DNA of 64,000 nucleotides. It comes from a virus. A model generated the notes under the pieces. The model was given only the letters and a program-made list of their open reading frames with translations. It did no database searches and was not told the DNA's origin. The position numbers and the translations under genes were made by a program. Positions 4,033-27,682 of the stretch are shown here, piece by piece (position 1 is the stretch's first letter; each line of letters begins with the position of its first letter). The DNA is taken from the IMG/VR virus record IMGVR_UViG_3300006076_000001, positions 29,787 through 93,786 of that record. One strand, 5' to 3'.

Positions 4033-4863
4033 TTAAAAAATCTTTTCTAAGTTCCATTTTTCTATAAAATCGACTGGGAATGATACCAATCTATCTAATT
4101 CTAAAATTACTTGTTCTCCGTCATAAACAATAAATTTATGTGAGCCATCTGGTAAAGCATCTAACTCTTTTTCTAACTGCTCTTTGTCTATCTTATCAAA
4201 TTTATCTTTAGATAGACCTATTATTCTTGTGTATGGTTTATAGGTATGTTTTAAGTCCCCAAACATTCTATTTAGTCTATTTTTTTCAATCCACTTATTT
4301 ATAGCCGTAATGATGAGAATCAATTGGATAGCTGATGCACTCTGAATTGGAAAGTTCATCGCTAATCTCTCAGCTTGGGATTTAAGAGACCAATATTTCT
4401 TTCTAAGTTTTGGGTCGGCTTTTTCCTCTGGAGTAATTTTTCTTGTAGCCATAGGTAAATATCTTTTTGAGCCAAAAATGTTATCTGTGTACCCCTCAGT
4501 TTTTACTCTTTCTTTTTGAAATTTATGTAATACTTTAAGTCTTGATAGATTAGAATAAAATCTATTAATAATTTCATTTGCTTCCTCTTTTGATATACCT
4601 ACTTTTTGAGAGACTGTGTATTCAGTTCCACCATATAATAAAGCTAACCCGACTGTTTTAGCAATAGCCCTCATTTCATTTTTGAATTTATGATATGCCT
4701 CTTTATTACCAGTTGCTTCATACTCCCTAACCAATTTATCAAACTCTTCTCCATAAATGGATAAAGCATTGGCACTATGGAAGTCTCCTATATAAGTTTT
4801 TGGAGTATCATCTTTATAATCTTTTAATTCCTCAAAAATCTTACTTAACTTAGCTTTATCCAT
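4033..4863 (-). CDS. Family A DNA polymerase, C-terminal fragment (motifs B and C)
   Basis: 276 residues. It begins at the segment after motif A (GDFHSANALSIYG, matching DIHTATA of Pol I). It has motif B as R65-AIA-K69-x7-YG and a Q/S-A-rich O-helix-side motif (FPIQSASAIQL). Motif C is VYDGE, where most relatives have HDE; the catalytic Asp is D248. The DxSxxE motif A is absent from both this fragment and the N-terminal fragment at 13881-15599. The start has AAAGGAGCAAATAATG. It may be DpoZ-like given the PurZ-like enzyme in this phage, but that is inference. Confidence 0.85.
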   Translation of the reverse strand: MDKAKLSKIFEELKDYKDDTPKTYIGDFHSANALSIYGEEFDKLVREYEATGNKEAYHKFKNEMRAIAKTVGLALLYGGTEYTVSQKVGISKEEANEIINRFYSNLSRLKVLHKFQKERVKTEGYTDNIFGSKRYLPMATRKITPEEKADPKLRKKYWSLKSQAERLAMNFPIQSASAIQLILIITAINKWIEKNRLNRMFGDLKHTYKPYTRIIGLSKDKFDKIDKEQLEKELDALPDGSHKFIVYDGEQVILELDRLVSFPVDFIEKWNLEKIF

Positions 4864-5242
4864 TATTTGCTCCTTTTACTCCTACATTTGTAATTTTATT
4901 TATCTCCCACATTTTATTTTCCGAATGAAAAGTAAATACATAGTTAATGTCTCTATCAAAGAAATATTGTTTATCTCTATCACAAACTGGTATTTTTTCT
5001 GGATTTAGATTTAAGAAAGAATACAAAGTGTAAATGTTAAGTGGGGTTATTTTTAACCCTCTTGTATCTTCATTAAATGAGACCTCAAAATCTAAATGAC
5101 TTTTATCATACCCTAAATCTAAACATACAGATAATAAATCAGAGTGTATTTGATGTATTAAAAAATTAGTATAAATGGCACATTCATACTTATTTAACAC
5201 TTTCTGAATCTCTAACCTTAACTGAAATTTAGTTTTATCCAT
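4856..5242 (-). CDS. Unknown 128-residue protein
   Basis: No family recognised. It begins MDKTKFQLRLEIQKVLNKYE and ends KGANNG. Its start junction GGAGCAAATAATGGATAAA is repeated exactly at the start of the next gene (polymerase C fragment). It overlaps the downstream start by 8 bases and the upstream endonuclease stop by 8 bases. I infer it entered or was duplicated together with the endonuclease upstream. Mixed alpha/beta look, cytoplasmic. Confidence 0.7.
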   Translation of the reverse strand: MDKTKFQLRLEIQKVLNKYECAIYTNFLIHQIHSDLLSVCLDLGYDKSHLDFEVSFNEDTRGLKITPLNIYTLYSFLNLNPEKIPVCDRDKQYFFDRDINYVFTFHSENKMWEINKITNVGVKGANNG

Positions 5243-6566
5243 TATTTGCTCCTATTTCTGATTTCACTAAATCAATAATTGTTTTCTTTATTTCCTCATC
5301 AGTCTTATAATATGGTATTCTAATTAATTTAATTTTGTTATCTTTTGCAAAAGTATCTTTAATTTTATCTCTTTGTTTAATTTTTTCAAATCCTATTTTT
5401 CCACCCCAATTATCAACTGGCTCAAAATGTTGTTTTCCGTCATACTCAATAAAGGTGTTATAATCTGGAAGATAGAAATCAAAATAATAATTTGAATCAT
5501 TAATTTTAACTCTGTATTGATGAATATAATTAACACCTAATTCATCTAAAATTGATTGAATAAATAACTCTCCTTTTGAAGTATTACATTTAGGACAGCC
5601 GTGATTGTTTAAATGATTGTCTATCCTTTGATAAAACAATTCGTGTTGAGGACAAACAATTGGGATTTTTTGTTTATTATTTTGATAATTACTCTGCCAC
5701 CAATCCAATGATGGATAGGTATATCTATCTCCGTGAGTTTGGATAGCACTCTTAATAAAGTCTTGATATGATAATCTATGATTGTTTTCCAGCTTTTCTC
5801 TACCACATTTGAGACAACCTCTACCCTGTAAATGACTTTCTACACTTTGATAAAATAAGCCGTGAATGGGACAGATAATAGGTATTTGGGTAGAGTTATT
5901 TTTGTAATTTTCTTGCCACCAATTAGCATCAATTGGGTAGATATAAAAATCATTATGGATTTTAGTGGCTTTATTAATAAACTCTTCATAAGATAATCGT
6001 TTAAAATCTTCTGATTTCTTTCTCCCACATTTGGGACAACCTCTACCCTGTAAATGTTTAGCTATTTTTTGTTTAAATTCTCCGTGAATAGAACAAACAA
6101 TTGGAATATAAGTTGATTGTAAAGTTTTGTAGTTTTCTTGCCACCAATTTTCATCAAAAGGATAGATGTATTTATTATTGTGAATCTTATTTGTTCTATC
6201 TATAAACTCTTTATAAGACATTTTTAAAGTGTTTTTACCACATTTAGGACAGCCATATAATTGATGGTTAGTAACACTTTGATAAAATAAGCCGTGAGTA
6301 GGACAAACAATTGGGACTTTAGTGTTTTTATCTTTATAATTGGAAATAAACCAATCCAATGTAAATTGAGAATAGTTGTATCTATTTTTATGAACTTTTC
6401 TAAATTTCTCTAAAATCAAATGGTATTGAAACTCTTTTGGTAATTTAGAAATGGTTGATGATTTTATTGATTTTAAATCATTAAAAGAGAGGTTTTGGAG
6501 AAGTCCTCTCCACTTATCTAAATTAGATAAGTTGTCTGTAAGTTGTTTAATTTCTTTCAAATTCAT
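5235..6566 (-). CDS. Homing-endonuclease-like protein with zinc-ribbon repeats and PD-(D/E)XK-like nuclease
   Basis: 443 residues. After the family N-terminal domain (MNLKEIKQLTDNLSNLDKW) come five repeats, each with WW or DWF, a CP.HG.F phrase and a CxxCG knuckle. The C-terminal nuclease domain has YYFDFYLPDY, FIEYDGKQHF and KLIRIPYYKTDEEI, a restriction-enzyme-like D...E-x-D-G arrangement. The same nuclease domain is fused to NrdB in the gene just upstream. Frame and knuckles are intact, so it is probably active. DNA cleavage specificity is unknown. Confidence 0.85.
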   Translation of the reverse strand: MNLKEIKQLTDNLSNLDKWRGLLQNLSFNDLKSIKSSTISKLPKEFQYHLILEKFRKVHKNRYNYSQFTLDWFISNYKDKNTKVPIVCPTHGLFYQSVTNHQLYGCPKCGKNTLKMSYKEFIDRTNKIHNNKYIYPFDENWWQENYKTLQSTYIPIVCSIHGEFKQKIAKHLQGRGCPKCGRKKSEDFKRLSYEEFINKATKIHNDFYIYPIDANWWQENYKNNSTQIPIICPIHGLFYQSVESHLQGRGCLKCGREKLENNHRLSYQDFIKSAIQTHGDRYTYPSLDWWQSNYQNNKQKIPIVCPQHELFYQRIDNHLNNHGCPKCNTSKGELFIQSILDELGVNYIHQYRVKINDSNYYFDFYLPDYNTFIEYDGKQHFEPVDNWGGKIGFEKIKQRDKIKDTFAKDNKIKLIRIPYYKTDEEIKKTIIDLVKSEIGANNG

Positions 6567-6576
6567 TTAAACTCTT

Positions 6577-7653
6577 TTAATCAAAGAGGTCATCTACATC
6601 TACTGCTTTTTTATTTCCAGTGCTTCTTTCGAAAGAATAATCAGTTACTGTATTAGTAAATGGGTTTGTATCTCTAACTTTCATTGATGATGAATCTTCT
6701 GCTTCAAATCTATCATCATATCTTTTGTAAGGGTTTTCTGTGTAAGAACTATAAGGGTTATTTGAAATACCTATCTCTCTAAGTCTTTTATTAGCTAAAA
6801 ATCTTGTATATTTTTCTATGATTGCATCAGAGAAACCTACAATTGGAGCAAGAATATCTTTACTAAATTGTTCTTCTAATTCTACTCCTTTTCTCATTTC
6901 TTCAATAACCATTTCCTCATCAAAGAAATCTGGGTATATTGCTCTTATCTCTTTAATTAAGTTTCTATATAGGATTAGATGTGAAACTTCGTCTCTATTG
7001 ATTAAGTAAATCATATCTGCGGTAGACCTCATTAGTCCTTTCTCAGCAAGAATGTAAAAGAACTTAAATCCATTATAAAAATAAAGTCCCTCTAAAATAT
7101 AATCACCAATAATAGCTCTAGCAAAAGTTCTATCAGTAGGGTTATCTGCGAAATCCTGATAAATTTGAGCTATATATCCATTTCTTTCTTTAAGTAATTC
7201 GTGAGTTCTCCAAAAGTCATAGATTTGTTTCTTCTCCTCTGGAGTAGGTATTACAGTCTCAATACAAGTAGAATAAGCCTGAGAATGTATGTCTTCTTGA
7301 AAAGCTTGGAAAACTAATAAAGATGTTACATCTGGAGCTGTGATGTATGAAGCAAACTGAAATGGATTGATTGTTTGAATTGAATCTAAAAACACTAAAA
7401 ATGACAGAATACCATTATATCCTCTTTGAACTTCTGGTAATAAGTTAGGATATTGTCTAGCATCTTCATAGAACTCTATATCCTCTGGAAACCAAATGTC
7501 CTTTCTCATTTTAGTTCTTAAATCTTGATACCATTTTTTATTTGCATATTTACCAAAGTTATGAGTAGCCAATCCAGTTGTATTAGCACCAATAATATCA
7601 TTTTTAAATGAATCTCCCTCTGGATTCCATAGTCTTCTTTTTTTAATCCTCAT
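6577..7653 (-). CDS. nrdB: Ribonucleotide reductase beta subunit, internal start within the fusion
   Basis: ATG at 7651-7653 follows AAAGGAG at 7662-7668 with 8 bases of spacing, a near-ideal ribosome site. It would give a 358-residue NrdB, the usual family size. The protein holds the di-iron and tyrosyl radical centre that NrdA (25343-27682) needs to reduce ribonucleoside diphosphates. Sequence alone cannot tell whether the fusion, the short form or both are made. Confidence 0.75.
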   Translation of the reverse strand: MRIKKRRLWNPEGDSFKNDIIGANTTGLATHNFGKYANKKWYQDLRTKMRKDIWFPEDIEFYEDARQYPNLLPEVQRGYNGILSFLVFLDSIQTINPFQFASYITAPDVTSLLVFQAFQEDIHSQAYSTCIETVIPTPEEKKQIYDFWRTHELLKERNGYIAQIYQDFADNPTDRTFARAIIGDYILEGLYFYNGFKFFYILAEKGLMRSTADMIYLINRDEVSHLILYRNLIKEIRAIYPDFFDEEMVIEEMRKGVELEEQFSKDILAPIVGFSDAIIEKYTRFLANKRLREIGISNNPYSSYTENPYKRYDDRFEAEDSSSMKVRDTNPFTNTVTDYSFERSTGNKKAVDVDDLFD

Positions 7654-8757
7654 AGCTCTATCTCCTTTCATCTTAATTAAATTTTTAATAGTGTGTTCCA
7701 CTTCTTCATCAGTTTTATAATATGGTATTCTAACCAATTTAATTTGGTTGTTTTTTGCAAAATCATTTTTAATTTTATCCCTCTGTTTTACCTTTTCAAA
7801 CCCTACCCTACCACCCCAACCCTTAATTGGTTTAAAGTGCTGTTCTCCGTCATACTCAATAAAAATGTTATAGTCTGGAAGATAAAAGTCAAAATAATAA
7901 TTTGAATCATTAATTTTAACTCTATATTGATAGATATAATTAACATCTAAATCGTCTAAAATTGATTTTATTTTGAGTTCTCCCTTAGACGATTTACAAA
8001 CAGGACAGCCGTGATTGTTTAAATGATTATTAACTGATTGATAAAATAGACCGTGAATAGGACAAATAATTGGGACTTTGGTGTTATCTTTTCCTTTATA
8101 ATTTTCTCGCCACCAGTTATTATCAAAAGGGTACTGATAGTAACTATTATGGATTTTAGTAGCTTTATCAATAAACCCTTTATAAGACAATTTTTGATTA
8201 TCAGTTGAACTCTTTTTTCCACACTTAGGACAGCCGTGATTATTTAAATGGTCGCCTACTCTCTGATAAAACAAACTATGAATAGGGCAAATAATAGGGG
8301 CTTTGGTATGTCTGTTTTTATAATTTTTATTCCACCAATTCTCATTAAATGGATACTGATATCTACCATTATGAATCTGAATAGCTTTTCTAATAAAATC
8401 TTGATAGGATAATTTTTTATTTCCAATACATTTAGAACAATTTTGCCCTCTCAAATGTCTATCTATCCTTTGATAAAACAATCCGTGTTGAGGACAAATG
8501 ATTGGAACTTTTTGTTTGTTATTTTGATAATTATCTATAAACCAATTTAAGGTAAATTTAGAATAATCATATCTATTTCCGTGAATCTTTCTAAACTTCT
8601 CTTTAACCAAATAATATTGGAACTCTTTTGGCAACTTGGAGATGGTTGTTGGTTTTATTAGTTTTAATTCCTCAAGAGAGGAATTTTTAATAAACCCTTT
8701 CCATTTGTATAAACTTTTGAAGTTGTCTGTAAGTTGTTTAATTTCTTTCAAATTCAC
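6577..8757 (-). CDS. nrdB: Endonuclease fused in frame to ribonucleotide reductase beta subunit
   Basis: 726 residues. Residues 1 to ~368 are a repeat-type endonuclease very similar to the next gene (5235-6566), with three complete zinc-ribbon repeats plus partial copies and a YYFDFYLPDY / FIEYDGEQHF nuclease. Residues 369-726 are class Ia NrdB. No stop separates them. NrdB begins MRIKKRRLWNPEGD and keeps the iron ligands and radical Tyr in E-D-I-H-S-Q-A-Y, plus EGLYFY and RDEVSH. An internal ribosome site before residue 369 suggests NrdB is also made alone. RNR genes are common homing targets; here the nuclease appears to have lost its stop at the insertion point. Confidence 0.85.
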   Translation of the reverse strand: MNLKEIKQLTDNFKSLYKWKGFIKNSSLEELKLIKPTTISKLPKEFQYYLVKEKFRKIHGNRYDYSKFTLNWFIDNYQNNKQKVPIICPQHGLFYQRIDRHLRGQNCSKCIGNKKLSYQDFIRKAIQIHNGRYQYPFNENWWNKNYKNRHTKAPIICPIHSLFYQRVGDHLNNHGCPKCGKKSSTDNQKLSYKGFIDKATKIHNSYYQYPFDNNWWRENYKGKDNTKVPIICPIHGLFYQSVNNHLNNHGCPVCKSSKGELKIKSILDDLDVNYIYQYRVKINDSNYYFDFYLPDYNIFIEYDGEQHFKPIKGWGGRVGFEKVKQRDKIKNDFAKNNQIKLVRIPYYKTDEEVEHTIKNLIKMKGDRAMRIKKRRLWNPEGDSFKNDIIGANTTGLATHNFGKYANKKWYQDLRTKMRKDIWFPEDIEFYEDARQYPNLLPEVQRGYNGILSFLVFLDSIQTINPFQFASYITAPDVTSLLVFQAFQEDIHSQAYSTCIETVIPTPEEKKQIYDFWRTHELLKERNGYIAQIYQDFADNPTDRTFARAIIGDYILEGLYFYNGFKFFYILAEKGLMRSTADMIYLINRDEVSHLILYRNLIKEIRAIYPDFFDEEMVIEEMRKGVELEEQFSKDILAPIVGFSDAIIEKYTRFLANKRLREIGISNNPYSSYTENPYKRYDDRFEAEDSSSMKVRDTNPFTNTVTDYSFERSTGNKKAVDVDDLFD

Positions 8758-8770
8758 TAAATCCCCTATT

Positions 8771-9214
8771 TTAATTTATTTCCCCGTCATCATCTATAAT
8801 GACATACTTTTTATTTCCAAAAAGGTTAGTATCCTCATCTTTTGATTTAGGTTTAGCTGGAGCAACTTTTAATTGTTCTTTCTTTTTTATATAAGTTTTA
8901 AGTAGAACACAATACCCTACTAAATCATTTATCGTATCTACTATCGTCTCATCGCTAACATTTATCTCTTCGCTTTTTGTTATAGATGCAAGTCTGGATA
9001 GTTTATCACCCATTCTACTAATAATAACTGATTCAACTGGAATGTCTAATAAGTCTGCAGATAGTTTAAAGTTTTTAAAAGTGTCTTCTTTACCAGAATA
9101 ATCTCTACCTTTTCTAACCAAAGTGTCCTTTAATTCAGAAAATGTTTTGTCTAATGTTTCAATCACTTCTTCTTGTGTAGCAAATACATTGTGATGAATT
9201 TTTCTTCTTTTCAT
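8771..9214 (-). CDS. DUF1599 / Nmad1-type nucleotide-modification-associated protein
   Basis: 147 residues using the ATG at 9212-9214, which has AAAGGAG upstream; a longer start at 9232 lacks one. The family pattern is clear: KGRDYSGKEDTFKNFKLSADLL, RMGDKLSRLASIT, then DETIVDTINDLVGYCVLLKTYI. Such all-helical proteins are found with phage genes for modified nucleotides (nucleotide modification associated domain 1, known by context). The acidic tail (YVIIDDDGEIN) is extra. It lies directly upstream of the NrdB fusion, among nucleotide genes. Exact reaction unknown. Confidence 0.7.
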   Translation of the reverse strand: MKRRKIHHNVFATQEEVIETLDKTFSELKDTLVRKGRDYSGKEDTFKNFKLSADLLDIPVESVIISRMGDKLSRLASITKSEEINVSDETIVDTINDLVGYCVLLKTYIKKKEQLKVAPAKPKSKDEDTNLFGNKKYVIIDDDGEIN

Positions 9215-9247
9215 TTGTTTTTCTCCTTTCATTATTTATGCCTTGTT

Positions 9248-13880: not shown

Positions 13881-15599
13881 TTAATTCTTGCTTTTATATT
13901 CCCAAGAAATTAAAGTGTTAATTATTCTTTGTTCTGCTTCTCTCTCTAACTCTTCCATTTGTGGGAGTTTAGTAACGACTTTTTTTAATTTAACCAATTT
14001 TGGTGATTCTGACGGCATACCCTGAGTATTTAAAGAGTGGGTAATACCATTACCTAATTTTAATTTACAATTTGTTTTAGTTTTAAGTTTATTAAAAGTT
14101 GCATATCTTGGGTGTCCTGACCCTTTTTCATTTGCAAATCTTAGGGTATCAGTACCGATGTATCTCAAATTAATATTAACAAAAAAATGGTTTCTGTCAT
14201 CAATGTAAAGGTTATATAAAATACCATAATAAATTGCTATATCTTTAACTAAAGACCTATATAAAGAAATAATACTTAATAAAGTTTGAATATCTTGTTT
14301 AGTATCCTCTGGTAAGAACTCTGCTTCCATAACAGCTGATTTAAATTTAGATAAAATGGAGTCATCCATATTGAACTGCTCTTTAATTGCACCACTTTTT
14401 AATTTATCTACTTTTCTAACCAATCCAAAATAGTCCTCTATATACTTATAGAAGTTATTTTCATCTCCTTTCCATAAAGGTTTTAGTATATAATTAACTA
14501 TTATCACAGACACCATAGGACTGACTACTGATATCTCCTCTTCATAACCATACTTTTTAAGTGTATTAATAAATTTTTGCTCTAAAAGTATCATTCTAAT
14601 GTTAATTGTTTTGATTGTCCTAACCAATCTGTCTTTATCGATTAAAAGCCCGTATTGTAAAGATGAAATTACATAATACAAAGCTTGATGAACTATTTTA
14701 GTTGTAGTAGGTTGCTCTTTATATGGGTTTCTACCATAAATGTCGTCTATCACAAATGCTTTAAACAAACCATAGGTATTAGTAGCATCTGACCCAGCAT
14801 ATGTTAAAGCATTTGAAACTGGCAACCTGTTAAAAGAAATGTGATTTTTAGTGGGTAAATTTAAAATTTCATTAATTTCAAGCATCTTTCTATTAAGTAC
14901 ATACTCTGATAATGCTTTAAGCCCATGACCTATATTCATAGGCATAAACTCTTGATTATTCATCAATTTTGAAACCAACATTGTATCTGTTATTGGGATA
15001 TTACCTATTTTAATTCCCCAGTTAGATAAATGAGCTAAGTCAAATTGTGCGTTATGTAAAACAATATGGAAATTGTCTATCAACCATTGTAAAAATGGTT
15101 TGACTTGTGTCTCCCAATCTAAATTTTTTATGCCATCTGTTTCTGTATGTTTAACTGGTAAAATAAACCCCTCTTTATCAGAAATAGCTAACGGAACTGA
15201 AACGATTTCTGTATCTGGAACAAACCTACCTTTAATCAATTTACCTTTAGTAGATAACCCCGAAGTTTCTAAATCCAATGCAATAACAGGTTTATTGAAG
15301 CCGTCATAAGTAACTGCTTTCTCTTTAATATAACTTTTGAATTTATCTAAATCTTTATCTACAACTTCTACATAATCAGCAATTGGAGTAAATAATTTAT
15401 CCTTATCAATCTCAGTTGTAATAATTTTAAAAGAACATTCCTTTACCCAGTCGTGCATTTTAGCAAAATTATGAGGTAAAAATACCTCTGACGGCTCTAA
15501 TGGAGAAAAGTCTTTTTCTAATTTACTATCAATTAATTCCTGATAATTTGGGATTTCAACAGGAACTTTATCATAAACAAAAAAATCTTTATACTTCAA
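13881..15599 (-). CDS. Family A DNA polymerase, N-terminal fragment (3'-5' exonuclease plus start of polymerase)
   Basis: 572 residues. The start is TTG at 15597-15599 with AGGAG five bases upstream; no ATG fits. The proofreading exonuclease motifs are complete: ALDLETSG (D109, E111), HNAQFDL (N183, D187) and YAGSD (Y267, D271). A thumb-like helical region leads to LRYIGTDTLRFA (~479-489), equal to the Pol I T-G-R-L-S-S region, and SLNTQGMPS, equal to NLQNIP. It ends before motif A. The rest of the polymerase lies 9 kb further on at 4033-4863. No visible gene supplies motif A. Confidence 0.87.
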   Translation of the reverse strand: MKYKDFFVYDKVPVEIPNYQELIDSKLEKDFSPLEPSEVFLPHNFAKMHDWVKECSFKIITTEIDKDKLFTPIADYVEVVDKDLDKFKSYIKEKAVTYDGFNKPVIALDLETSGLSTKGKLIKGRFVPDTEIVSVPLAISDKEGFILPVKHTETDGIKNLDWETQVKPFLQWLIDNFHIVLHNAQFDLAHLSNWGIKIGNIPITDTMLVSKLMNNQEFMPMNIGHGLKALSEYVLNRKMLEINEILNLPTKNHISFNRLPVSNALTYAGSDATNTYGLFKAFVIDDIYGRNPYKEQPTTTKIVHQALYYVISSLQYGLLIDKDRLVRTIKTINIRMILLEQKFINTLKKYGYEEEISVVSPMVSVIIVNYILKPLWKGDENNFYKYIEDYFGLVRKVDKLKSGAIKEQFNMDDSILSKFKSAVMEAEFLPEDTKQDIQTLLSIISLYRSLVKDIAIYYGILYNLYIDDRNHFFVNINLRYIGTDTLRFANEKGSGHPRYATFNKLKTKTNCKLKLGNGITHSLNTQGMPSESPKLVKLKKVVTKLPQMEELEREAEQRIINTLISWEYKSKN

Positions 15600-21769: not shown

Positions 21770-23611
21770 TCAACCCTCCCATTCCCATTTAAAATTACCA
21801 GAATTATAAACCCGATACCACCCAGCTAAATCCATAATTTCCCGTTCTGTGTAATCACCTTTAGCTTCAAAAACTTTAGAAATAATAGGCTTTAAATAAT
21901 CATAATTTAATAATTTATGTTTTTGAAAATGATTTCTACTGTATCTCTTAGTCTTATCTGGACTGATATAAAAATAAGATGGGTCAGTTATACTAATCAA
22001 TTTAAATCCCGCTTTATAATAAACCGAATCAGTCTCAAGATTGTTTAAATCTATTGCCGAAAAGGTTATGATTTTATCAGGATTATTTTCTCTTAAAAAG
22101 TGTTTAAATAATTTAGAGAACCCACCGACTACTGAATAATTTCTCTCCGTAGCAAATCTATCTATTTCCCAATAATCCTTTTTCTTGATAAAAGTCAGAA
22201 CTTGAATCAATTTGTCTTGATAAAATAAGCCATAATATAAATTGGACGATTTAGTCCCCTGAAAATGATTTCTATCTAAAAAGTCTTTAACATCTTTATA
22301 TTTAAGTTGTCTAATTTCACATTTTCTAGCATAAACCCTGTATTTTGATTTACCTAATTGATTCCTTATAAAAGCAAATACTAAGTCTCTCTTATTCAAC
22401 CACCAATCCTCCCAGATATGTACTAACTTAATTCCTTTTTCTGCAAAATACAATGACTTTTCTTGATGATACTTTGGATGTTTAAATTGGTCTGAATGCC
22501 ACCTAATCCCGTTAAACTCAAAGCCTATATTAAGTTCTGGAATAAAGATGTCTATTTCATATTTACTGTCTTTGTATTTAGTAGTATTAAATCCAAAAGA
22601 TTCTATATATCTTCTTATCTCTTCCTCCCCATTTGAAAAAGTATTCCCACATTTAGGACAACCCTCACCCTGCAAATGAGAATTAACCTGTTGATGGAAT
22701 AAGCCGTGTTGAGGACAAATAATTGAAACTTTTTCTTTACTATTTCTATAATGTTGTTTCCACCAATCTAATGATGGGTAAATATATTTATTTCCGTGAA
22801 TTTGTGTAGCTTTTTCTATAAACTCTTGATAAGAAAGTCTATTTTTATCTCCCATTGTTTCATAACCACATTTAAGACAGCCTTTACCACTTAGATGACT
22901 ACCCACACCCTGCATAAATTCTCCGTGTTGAGGACAAATAATTGGTACTTTGGTATCTTTATTTTTATAATTCTCTTGCCACCACTCTTCATTAAAAGGG
23001 TATTGATACCTGTTTTTATGGATTTTGGTAGCTTTACTAATAAAGTCTTGATAAGATAACTTTTTATTATTAGCACATTCGGGACAGCCTAAACCTTTTA
23101 AATGATTTTCTGCTTTTTGATAAAATAACCCGTGTTGAGGACAAATGATAGGGACTTCACTTTTCATCCCTCTATAGTTATTACACCACCAATCATTATC
23201 AAAAGAGTAATTATATAAATTATTATGGACTTTAGTGGCTTTTCTTATAAAGTCTTGATAAGAAAGTTTTCTATTTTTAGCACATTTAGGACAGCCGTGA
23301 TTATTAAGATGGTCGTTTATTCTTTGATAAAATAAGCCGTGAATGGGACAGATAATAGGTATTTTAGTTGCACTCCCACCAAAATTATCTATAAACCAAT
23401 CTAATGTAAATTGAGAGTAATCGTATCTGTTATTATAAATTTTGATTAATTTCTCTAAAATTAAATAATATTGGAACTCTTTTGGTAATCTTGAAATAAC
23501 AGCGGAATTTATAGACTTTAATTCCTCAAGAGAGGAATTATTGAGAAATTGTTTCCATTTATTTAAATTAGTTAGATTATCTGTAAGTTGTCTAATATCT
23601 GACAATCTCAT
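21770..23611 (-). CDS. Homing-endonuclease-like protein with zinc-ribbon repeats, Vsr-like nuclease and C-terminal domain
   Basis: 613 residues. N-terminal family domain (MRLSDIRQLTDNLTNLNKW), then five zinc-ribbon repeats (ICPIHGLF ... CPKC). A Vsr/EDxHD-like nuclease follows (YEIDIFIPELNIGFEFNG, WHSDQF, HIWEDWW). The ~190-residue C-terminal domain has RNHFQGTKSSNLYYGLFYQD and YYKAGFKLISITDPSYFY, seen in many phage free-standing endonucleases. It shows the full form of the truncated gene at 1-1105. It lies between portal and sigma-like genes; its stop is not followed by an obvious target scar. Confidence 0.87.
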   Translation of the reverse strand: MRLSDIRQLTDNLTNLNKWKQFLNNSSLEELKSINSAVISRLPKEFQYYLILEKLIKIYNNRYDYSQFTLDWFIDNFGGSATKIPIICPIHGLFYQRINDHLNNHGCPKCAKNRKLSYQDFIRKATKVHNNLYNYSFDNDWWCNNYRGMKSEVPIICPQHGLFYQKAENHLKGLGCPECANNKKLSYQDFISKATKIHKNRYQYPFNEEWWQENYKNKDTKVPIICPQHGEFMQGVGSHLSGKGCLKCGYETMGDKNRLSYQEFIEKATQIHGNKYIYPSLDWWKQHYRNSKEKVSIICPQHGLFHQQVNSHLQGEGCPKCGNTFSNGEEEIRRYIESFGFNTTKYKDSKYEIDIFIPELNIGFEFNGIRWHSDQFKHPKYHQEKSLYFAEKGIKLVHIWEDWWLNKRDLVFAFIRNQLGKSKYRVYARKCEIRQLKYKDVKDFLDRNHFQGTKSSNLYYGLFYQDKLIQVLTFIKKKDYWEIDRFATERNYSVVGGFSKLFKHFLRENNPDKIITFSAIDLNNLETDSVYYKAGFKLISITDPSYFYISPDKTKRYSRNHFQKHKLLNYDYLKPIISKVFEAKGDYTEREIMDLAGWYRVYNSGNFKWEWEG

Positions 23612-25342: not shown

Positions 25343-27682
25343 TTAATTAGCACAACCTACACAAATATAACTAGTAGGTCTTGCGTAATAGGTTGTTTTA
25401 ATACCTTTTTGCCAAGCTTTGATATAAAATTTAGCTAAATAATTTGAATCGTGTTTATTACTAAAATAAGGAACTTCCATAGAAATACCCATATCTACCC
25501 ATTTTTGGAATAAAGCATAAGTATCTAAGTATTGAGTAAAGATGTCAATGTTATAAAGAGAACTTGCATTATAGACCCATCTATATTTATCATATTCAGG
25601 AACTACTACTGTCTCTGTTCCAAAAATACCTGTTTTTTCATAAATTGGAGATTTAATAGGCATAATTGATGCTGTTTCTCCCATAACTGCTGAAGTTCCA
25701 GTATTAGGAGCTATAGCAAAAAGTCCAGTGTTTGCCATTCCTTTTTCTTTAATAAGATTATGAAGTTCAATCCATTTATTACCTAATTTACCATTTTTAG
25801 CGATTTCTTCTACAGGTCTACCAAAGAATACACCTCTTTCCCAATCTGAGCCATAAAATGCTGGAGCTACTCCAAAAAATCCAGTAGCTTTAACTGATGC
25901 TTTAATTACATAATAAGCTACTCTCTCAAGAACTTCTTCAGTCCATTTTAAAGCTTCTGGTGTCCCATAAACTAAGTTATGTCTAGCTAATGCATGAGCG
26001 TAACCAATATAACCTATACCGATTTTTCTAAACTTTTTATCGAATTTAGTTGATTGAGGATTTGATGAATGAGTTAAACTCATTACTGCGTTTAATTGTA
26101 ATACTATGGTATCAGCTACATCCCCTAACTCTTCATCTGATAAATCACAGATTTTATTAAAGTTTAAAGATGATAAATGACAAGTAGCCGCAAATGAATC
26201 TTTTAAATTCCATTTAATAGTTTCGATGTCATTTTCAAATAAATGTTCTTGTGGATTAATGTCATCATTAAATGGAGTATGTATCCCTAAAAATTCCATA
26301 CATAAATTACCAGAATAAATTACACCTTTATGTTTATTTGCATTTGCTCTATTAACTGCATCTCTATAAAAGAAAAACGGGTCACCTATTTCTGGGACTC
26401 TGTCTATAATTTCCATATAAAATGACAGAGCGTCCACTTGTTTAAATAGTCTTAATTTACCCTCAATCCCCATTTGTTCCAGCATTTTATACTTTTCTTC
26501 AAACTCTTCGCCATAAAAATCAGATAAATCTTTACCCAAAATCTGTTTAATTTCATAAGGGTCAAATAAAGACCATTTTCCTTTTTGTTTTATTCTCTTA
26601 AAGAATAAATCAGGAACTGAAACACTTCTGAAAATCGTAGTAGCTTTCTTTTTAACATCACCATTAATGTCTTTCAACTGAATAAAATCACCAATGTCAA
26701 AATGCCATAAATCCATAGTAACATTAGCATTACCTTGTCTTATGTCTAATTGGTCTGTTGCTGATACACAAGCATCTACAATCCTAATGTATGGTATTGA
26801 CCCACCAGCAACTCCCCATTTTCCTTTAATTGCTGAGCCTCTTGCCCTAATTTTCCCCATATAAACACCGAAACCTCTACCCATAGATAAGTCTTCAGTT
26901 AATTTAACAATCGAATAATTTATTGATTTCAAACTATCACCAATAGCAAGAACTTCACAAGATGTCCCATTAAAGTTATTTGTTCTTAAATTAGATAGTA
27001 TTGGAGTAGCTGGAGAAATTGTTCTTTCTTTAACAAAATGTTTAAATAGTTTTTTTACCATTAGATTTCTAAAGTCTTTAGATTTAAACACAGAAGCAAT
27101 TGCCATTGCAACACCAAGATACATCTCTTGTGGTAACTCAACTACCTTATTACCTTTATTAGCTAAATATTGAGACTCCATAGACCTCAAAACAACTGGT
27201 TCTAATTCATTTTCCCAATTTTCATTATACATTGAAACAAACTCTTTTAAGTCATCATCTGAATAACAGCTAAACAACTCTTTATTCCAAACACCTAATT
27301 CCATAAGCTTTTTAATAACTTCTATTCTTGTATCAATAGAGCCATACCCAAATTTCCTATTTACTTTAGTCCCTAAAATTTTTGCCGTATTGTATCTAAT
27401 CCTTTTATTTAAGTCCATATTAATTAAACGACCTTTTACATAAGTCCAATTAGGATTATCAGAATCAATTAATTGTTCTGCTGTATCAATTAACATTTGC
27501 TGAATTTCTATTGTTTTAATACCATCTTTTATTAATAAAGAAAATTTTTCTTCTAACACCTGAGGGTCTACCCCATCAATCCCCTCTGTAGCCCATTTAA
27601 TTGTTCTTCTAATTTTAGAACTATTCCATTCCACTTTAGAGCCATCTCTTTTTTCTACAAAGACTTTTCTATTACCTACCAT
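25343..27682 (-). CDS. nrdA: Ribonucleotide reductase alpha subunit, class Ia
   Basis: 779 residues. N-terminal ATP-cone (VEKRDGSKVEWNSSKIRRTI), substrate-site Cys in NGTSCEVLAIGDSL, catalytic N-L-C-M-E, partner Cys in TCHLSSLNF, NTGTSAVMGETASIMPI, and a redox C-terminus ending CVGCAN. Reduces ribonucleotides together with NrdB at 6577-7653. The two subunits lie 17 kb apart, and NrdA sits inside the head/packaging module next to portal. Confidence 0.95.
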   Translation of the reverse strand: MVGNRKVFVEKRDGSKVEWNSSKIRRTIKWATEGIDGVDPQVLEEKFSLLIKDGIKTIEIQQMLIDTAEQLIDSDNPNWTYVKGRLINMDLNKRIRYNTAKILGTKVNRKFGYGSIDTRIEVIKKLMELGVWNKELFSCYSDDDLKEFVSMYNENWENELEPVVLRSMESQYLANKGNKVVELPQEMYLGVAMAIASVFKSKDFRNLMVKKLFKHFVKERTISPATPILSNLRTNNFNGTSCEVLAIGDSLKSINYSIVKLTEDLSMGRGFGVYMGKIRARGSAIKGKWGVAGGSIPYIRIVDACVSATDQLDIRQGNANVTMDLWHFDIGDFIQLKDINGDVKKKATTIFRSVSVPDLFFKRIKQKGKWSLFDPYEIKQILGKDLSDFYGEEFEEKYKMLEQMGIEGKLRLFKQVDALSFYMEIIDRVPEIGDPFFFYRDAVNRANANKHKGVIYSGNLCMEFLGIHTPFNDDINPQEHLFENDIETIKWNLKDSFAATCHLSSLNFNKICDLSDEELGDVADTIVLQLNAVMSLTHSSNPQSTKFDKKFRKIGIGYIGYAHALARHNLVYGTPEALKWTEEVLERVAYYVIKASVKATGFFGVAPAFYGSDWERGVFFGRPVEEIAKNGKLGNKWIELHNLIKEKGMANTGLFAIAPNTGTSAVMGETASIMPIKSPIYEKTGIFGTETVVVPEYDKYRWVYNASSLYNIDIFTQYLDTYALFQKWVDMGISMEVPYFSNKHDSNYLAKFYIKAWQKGIKTTYYARPTSYICVGCAN

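Follow-up and report, generated by a model that had tools for sequence, protein, structure and literature searches.

Known phage homing endonucleases near essential genes occur as separate frames, in introns, in inteins or as gene-splitting frames. In T4, mobE lies between nrdA and nrdB, and in Aeh1 mobE splits nrdA (PMC2988022, PMC3653736). The locus analyzed here is similar in having a mobile-type nuclease at a ribonucleotide reductase (RNR) gene, overlapping gene ends, and a host enzyme expected to be functional. However, the mobE genes are separate or gene-splitting HNH frames, whereas the nuclease here is Vsr/EDxHD-like and continues without a stop, in the same phase, into an intact nrdB. 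Its catalytic fold, as found by Foldseek on a predicted model, is shared with Vsr (1vsr) and with I-Bth0305I (3r3p), an example of the EDxHD homing endonucleases (PMC3943268). The literature lists I-Bth0305I with intron homing endonucleases, while the nuclease modeled here is joined to NrdB and is predicted to carry DUF723/DUF4379-like zinc units. In phage homing endonucleases, zinc fingers of the DUF723-like and related types have been described as DNA-binding parts (PMC10448857).

Other described arrangements resemble the locus in part. In HEG islands (PMC10448857), two nuclease genes enclose an essential gene of nucleotide metabolism, as they do here. The islands are high-identity blocks shared by otherwise different phages, whereas none were found in this case because the collections contain no close relative. 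'Fractured genes' combine split inteins with a homing endonuclease (Dassa et al. 2009, as cited in PMC10448857). As far as that citation describes them, the likeness lies in a relative of the phage (G001), which has a same-family nuclease between apparent split-intein halves at the N part of polA. The difference is that the nuclease-NrdB join has no intein sequence and NrdB is whole. The ShiLan insertion (PMC11855218) is comparable as an endonuclease insert with no stop when read in the frame of the host gene and with no splicing detected, but its nuclease sits within a methylase and out of frame, whereas the one studied here is N-terminal and in frame. Based on sequence features, we file the locus as a variant of the known association between homing-type nucleases and phage RNR genes, and not as an intein. 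None of about 160 relatives showed a nuclease without a stop running in phase into a complete essential gene, and the locus offers a natural experiment on how such a fusion is tolerated by an essential gene that has its own start.

Organization and predicted products of the locus

The window (the whole 64,000 nt stretch analyzed) comprises bases 29787-93786 of a 93,786-base IMG/VR virus record from an uncultured phage. Features at the locus, in window positions, are as follows.

6577-8757, minus strand: fused open reading frame, GTG start, 726 codons (726 aa), no internal stop
7654-8757, minus strand: nuclease part, 368 codons, GTG start, without a stop
6577-7653, minus strand: NrdB part, complete class I ribonucleotide reductase small subunit, 358 aa
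7662-7668, minus strand: nrdB ribosome site AAAGGAG, inside the last nuclease codons, 8 nt upstream of the ATG
7651-7653, minus strand: nrdB ATG, in phase with the nuclease; the next base is A
8755-8767, minus strand: ribosome site and GTG of the fused frame, AGGGGATTTAGTG
5235-6566, minus strand: free sister nuclease (the neighbor), directly downstream of nrdB; stop codon overlapping the following start (8 nt)
8771-9232, minus strand: gene upstream of the nuclease, DUF1599-like, phrog_1485 (family matches)

An earlier note on this DNA had claimed that an endonuclease frame enters NrdB without a stop, and that AAAGGAG and the ATG of a full-size NrdB lie at the join. Both statements hold: the minus-strand frame at 6577-8757 is uninterrupted over 726 codons, and the ribosome site (7662-7668) and ATG (7653-7651) precede 358 aa of NrdB. 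Residues 1-368 of the fused protein match phage endonuclease families, and residues 369-726 are the full NrdB. Near the NrdB ATG, the other two frames stop within a few bases (at TAG and at the TGA of ATGA). The GTG start is credible, as VNLKEIKQLTDN of the fused copy matches MNLKEIKQLTDN of the neighbor and AGGGGA lies 4 nt before the GTG. A free-standing homing endonuclease gene would have both a start and a stop of its own; the nuclease here has its own GTG but no stop before NrdB. Sister nucleases flank nrdB on both sides (7654-8757 and 5235-6566), as in an HEG island, and NrdA is encoded separately (25343-27682).

The NrdB part is a class I RNR small subunit (NrdB/R2) by its ligands, tyrosine, and fold. 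It matches PF00268 (E=1.7e-59) and contains the metal ligands D90, E120, H123, E188, E222, and H225 and the radical tyrosine Y127. Its model has the R2 fold (6zjk, target TM 0.93), and the closest solved structures are the R2 proteins of Clostridium botulinum and Aquifex. M1 falls where other R2 proteins begin, giving a normal N terminus, and the C terminus is a free acidic tail (DVDDLFD). R2 is dimeric, and in known R2 proteins the C terminus is the R1-binding part.

The nuclease part matches the phage endonuclease families phrog_559 and phrog_9084 ('homing endonuclease'). An N-terminal helical region is followed by three CxxH...H...CxxC zinc units (residues 88-110, 157-179, and 232-254), with weak DUF4379/DUF723 matches on both the fused and neighbor proteins, and then by a Vsr/EDxHD-like catalytic domain (about 256-365). 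Across 38 sequences, D290, E301, G304, H307, D327, and K330 are invariant, and E260 and D303 are conserved in at least 90%. In the fused copy, neither a frameshift nor an internal stop interrupts the frame, and every invariant catalytic and zinc residue is retained. Searching PDB sequences with the nuclease profile gave no useful match, so we used a fold search. Foldseek of the predicted structure (mean pLDDT 89) against the PDB returned 3r3p (I-Bth0305I, target TM 0.63) and 1vsr (Vsr, 0.56), both with probability 1.00 but a weak E of about 0.035. The features of EDxHD/Vsr-like enzymes are present, namely a catalytic fold with acidic residues and a histidine, and a coupled DNA-binding region. 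Our best reading of sequence and model is a homing-type, Vsr/EDxHD-like endonuclease with a zinc array, in which homing is putative.

Predicted SD pairing was -8.7 kcal/mol for the NrdB ATG, compared with a median of -8.2 for genes in the window and -6.4 for the GTG of the fused frame. Only 7 of 281 internal in-frame ATGs have an SD as good as that of NrdB. Since its pairing is slightly above the window median, normal NrdB can be made from the internal start, and it is probably a more abundant product than the fusion. Given the missing stop, any nuclease from this gene would be a nuclease-NrdB protein. The separately makeable product is predicted to be NrdB, and a free nuclease cannot, on this reading frame, be made from it. 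The suggestion that one transcript could give two products thus stands in a refined form: NrdB, which keeps its own SD and ATG, would be the free one, and not the nuclease. The fusion model consists of two well-folded units connected by a low-confidence linker (residues 365-374). A promoter scan around the join gave 25 matches against 26.5 expected by chance.

The join and the sister nucleases

Two sister nucleases in the genome share the catalytic domain of the fused copy, and each stops where the next gene has its ribosome site. The neighbor terminates there with an 8-nt overlap (AAATAGGAGCAAATAATGGATAA). The other paralog (L016:8250-9089) ends NLIKGDK*, with its stop between the SD and ATG of the next gene (AAAGGAGACAAATAAAATG). 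At the equivalent position, the fused copy has NLIKMKGDRA-M (DNA AAAGGAGATAGAGCTATG), remains in the same frame as this paralog through the SD, and reads AAAGGAGATAGAGCTATGAGG without a stop, with NLIKMKGDRAMR as the predicted peptide across the join. After the last strand of the catalytic domain, 22 residues precede NrdB M1. Among distinct viral-contig relatives, tails after the catalytic domain were ≤30 residues in 150 of 157 and ≤43 in 156 of 157. Because the 22-residue tail is within these usual lengths, the join sits at the natural 3' end of the nuclease, the stop being the sole thing missing. An intein at the join was considered and rejected, as the junction (..GDRA|MRIK) has no HN and no C/S/T, and no intein family was among the Pfam matches. 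Decay of a further copy (G000:C1:23513-24004) was also rejected, its in-frame TAA lying five codons upstream of that copy's ATG.

The neighbor is a free nuclease, as had been proposed, although describing its nuclease domain as almost the same was an overstatement: the fused copy and the neighbor share 64% amino acid identity over 366 codons, 82 of 111 residues of the catalytic part, and 81% nucleotide identity over a 300-nt 3' stretch. Exact matches between them reach at most 37 nt, at the gene starts, and none crosses the join. The proposal that the fusion state is recent was not supported by comparison of the copies (dN about 0.25, dS about 1, dN/dS about 0.25), which puts an age on a duplication or on separate insertions and not on the loss of the stop. 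These values indicate long divergence of the two nuclease copies under constraint, and would not give the timing of stop loss.

A 34-nt direct repeat (88%; window 4847-4880 and 5226-5259) takes in, for both the polA C part and ORF 4856-5242, the start and its ribosome site. Because of this repeat, the neighbor nuclease and ORF 4856-5242 both end in ..GANNG*.

Relatives and alternative explanations

Fusion of the nuclease into another gene was found in 0 of 157 distinct related nucleases. No real N-terminal NrdB extension of >51 codons was present in 163 NrdB loci (83 viral, with a few records counted twice, and 80 bacterial). A candidate bacterial extension (L250, 549 aa) was discarded as NrdA read across a run of masked N, and the 245-residue tail of a long nuclease (L023) was an extra nuclease-type module rather than a host gene. 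In a search with the whole fusion, none of 50,697 phage records covered 80%. In L001, the closest relative found, nrdA and nrdB lie side by side and no nuclease separates them.

By script count, about 49 of 175 distinct nuclease ends overlap the start of the next gene; 17 do so by ATGA, and in-phase overlaps are absent. When the neighbor and fused copy are added, 1 of 51 overlaps is in phase, whereas random phase (one third) would give one or fewer at a probability near 3e-8. This comparison is not a formal test, since the starts were called by script and ATGA overlaps have other reasons to be favored. In-phase joins between the nuclease and the next gene thus seem to be avoided, and their being far rarer than the one third expected at random phase suggests selection against such fusions.

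We consider it fairly probable that a free-standing homing-type nuclease gene upstream of nrdB lost its stop and now continues in phase into NrdB, with both products made from one transcript. The gene would have arrived as a mobile gene immediately upstream of nrdB, its natural 3' end lying at the nrdB ribosome site, and its former stop would later have been lost. Ribosomes starting at GTG 8757 would then produce a 726-residue nuclease-NrdB, and those starting at ATG 7653 the normal 358-residue NrdB, which may suffice to keep the phage RNR working. Direct support comes from the single frame, the active-site residues in both domains, the internal start with its SD, the position of the join at the end typical of the family, and the absence of such a fusion elsewhere in the sample. 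Counting against this explanation, there is no before/after pair for the insertion or the stop loss: neither a nearby phage nor an empty site was found by searches of viral_contigs with NrdB, the nuclease, and the upstream gene or of genome_contigs with NrdB. In-phase joins are also otherwise absent among about 50 overlaps, and a one-base error on an ATGA overlap would produce the same frame.

Such an assembly or sequencing indel seems unlikely to us, but it is the main doubt. The real nuclease gene would then overlap nrdB by ATGA, the frames having been joined by a single wrong base near 7654-7690. Since nrdB starts ATGA, the commonest overlap of the family (17 of about 49), a single base, mutated or misassembled, separates the fusion from the ordinary arrangement. 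The shifted frame would end ..KEIEL*, a usual tail length, and the copies flanking nrdB are 81% alike in part. However, there is no homopolymer beyond AAA/TTT between 7654 and 7681 (the last 28 bases before the ATG), the fused frame agrees with the paralog at L016:8250-9089 through NLIK and the KGD of the SD, and the longest exact copy-to-copy match lies at the gene starts and not across the join. We give little credence to a decaying nuclease, in which stop loss was neutral, the nuclease having fallen out of use and NrdB alone being of consequence. Instability between isolates has been described for phage homing endonuclease genes, in the form of frameshifts, variable stops, and in-frame deletions (PMC10448857), and the fused nuclease may be inactive. 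Against this, the fused copy is free of frameshifts and internal stops and retains its invariant catalytic and zinc residues.

The fusion could instead be a selected bifunctional protein, in which two nucleases are brought together by the R2 dimer or RNR is anchored to DNA through the zinc array; this we regard as improbable. Both halves contain all of their conserved catalytic residues, and the dN/dS between the two nuclease copies is low enough to be counted in its favor, although it averages over time preceding any fusion. I-Bth0305I, the structural match of the catalytic domain, dimerizes on its target (PMC3943268), and R2 is itself dimeric. However, no relative has the fusion, and the kept SD and ATG argue for a need for unfused NrdB. 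Equally improbable is that the nuclease exists only as the N-terminal half of R2, alongside free NrdB, with the R2 dimer pairing nucleases or the nuclease holding RNR on DNA. If true, the enzyme of a mobile element and a host enzyme would be mutually dependent.

Other nuclease and polA arrangements

DNA polymerase A is encoded in two genes 9 kb apart in the window, an exonuclease/N part (13881-15599, minus strand) and a C part (4033-4863, minus strand), and a pattern search of the whole record for motif A gave no convincing match. The two polA parts are likewise far apart in relative G001. There, at L270:1351-4316 (around 76-79 kb), the end of the polA N part resembles a split-intein N half (CVIKDTPINI..TRHRFM); a same-family nuclease comes next, and then YDYIANGFVCHN-TGRYSN, which resembles an intein C half with extein. 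By its sequence, this region looks like a 'fractured gene' arrangement. In another record (G002, L023:714-4153), a homolog of the polA N part is joined by an ATGA overlap to a same-family nuclease with a second C-terminal module.

Two more nucleases were observed, at 21770-23611 (minus strand) and in an ORF ending near L016:14351 that reaches into the first 1.1 kb of the window. Both share the zinc-unit N part, have a different C-terminal module (..GGFSKLFKHF..YNSGNFKWEW), and end at normal stops, a pattern that in sequence comparison is one of nuclease-domain swapping on a single predicted DNA-binding array.
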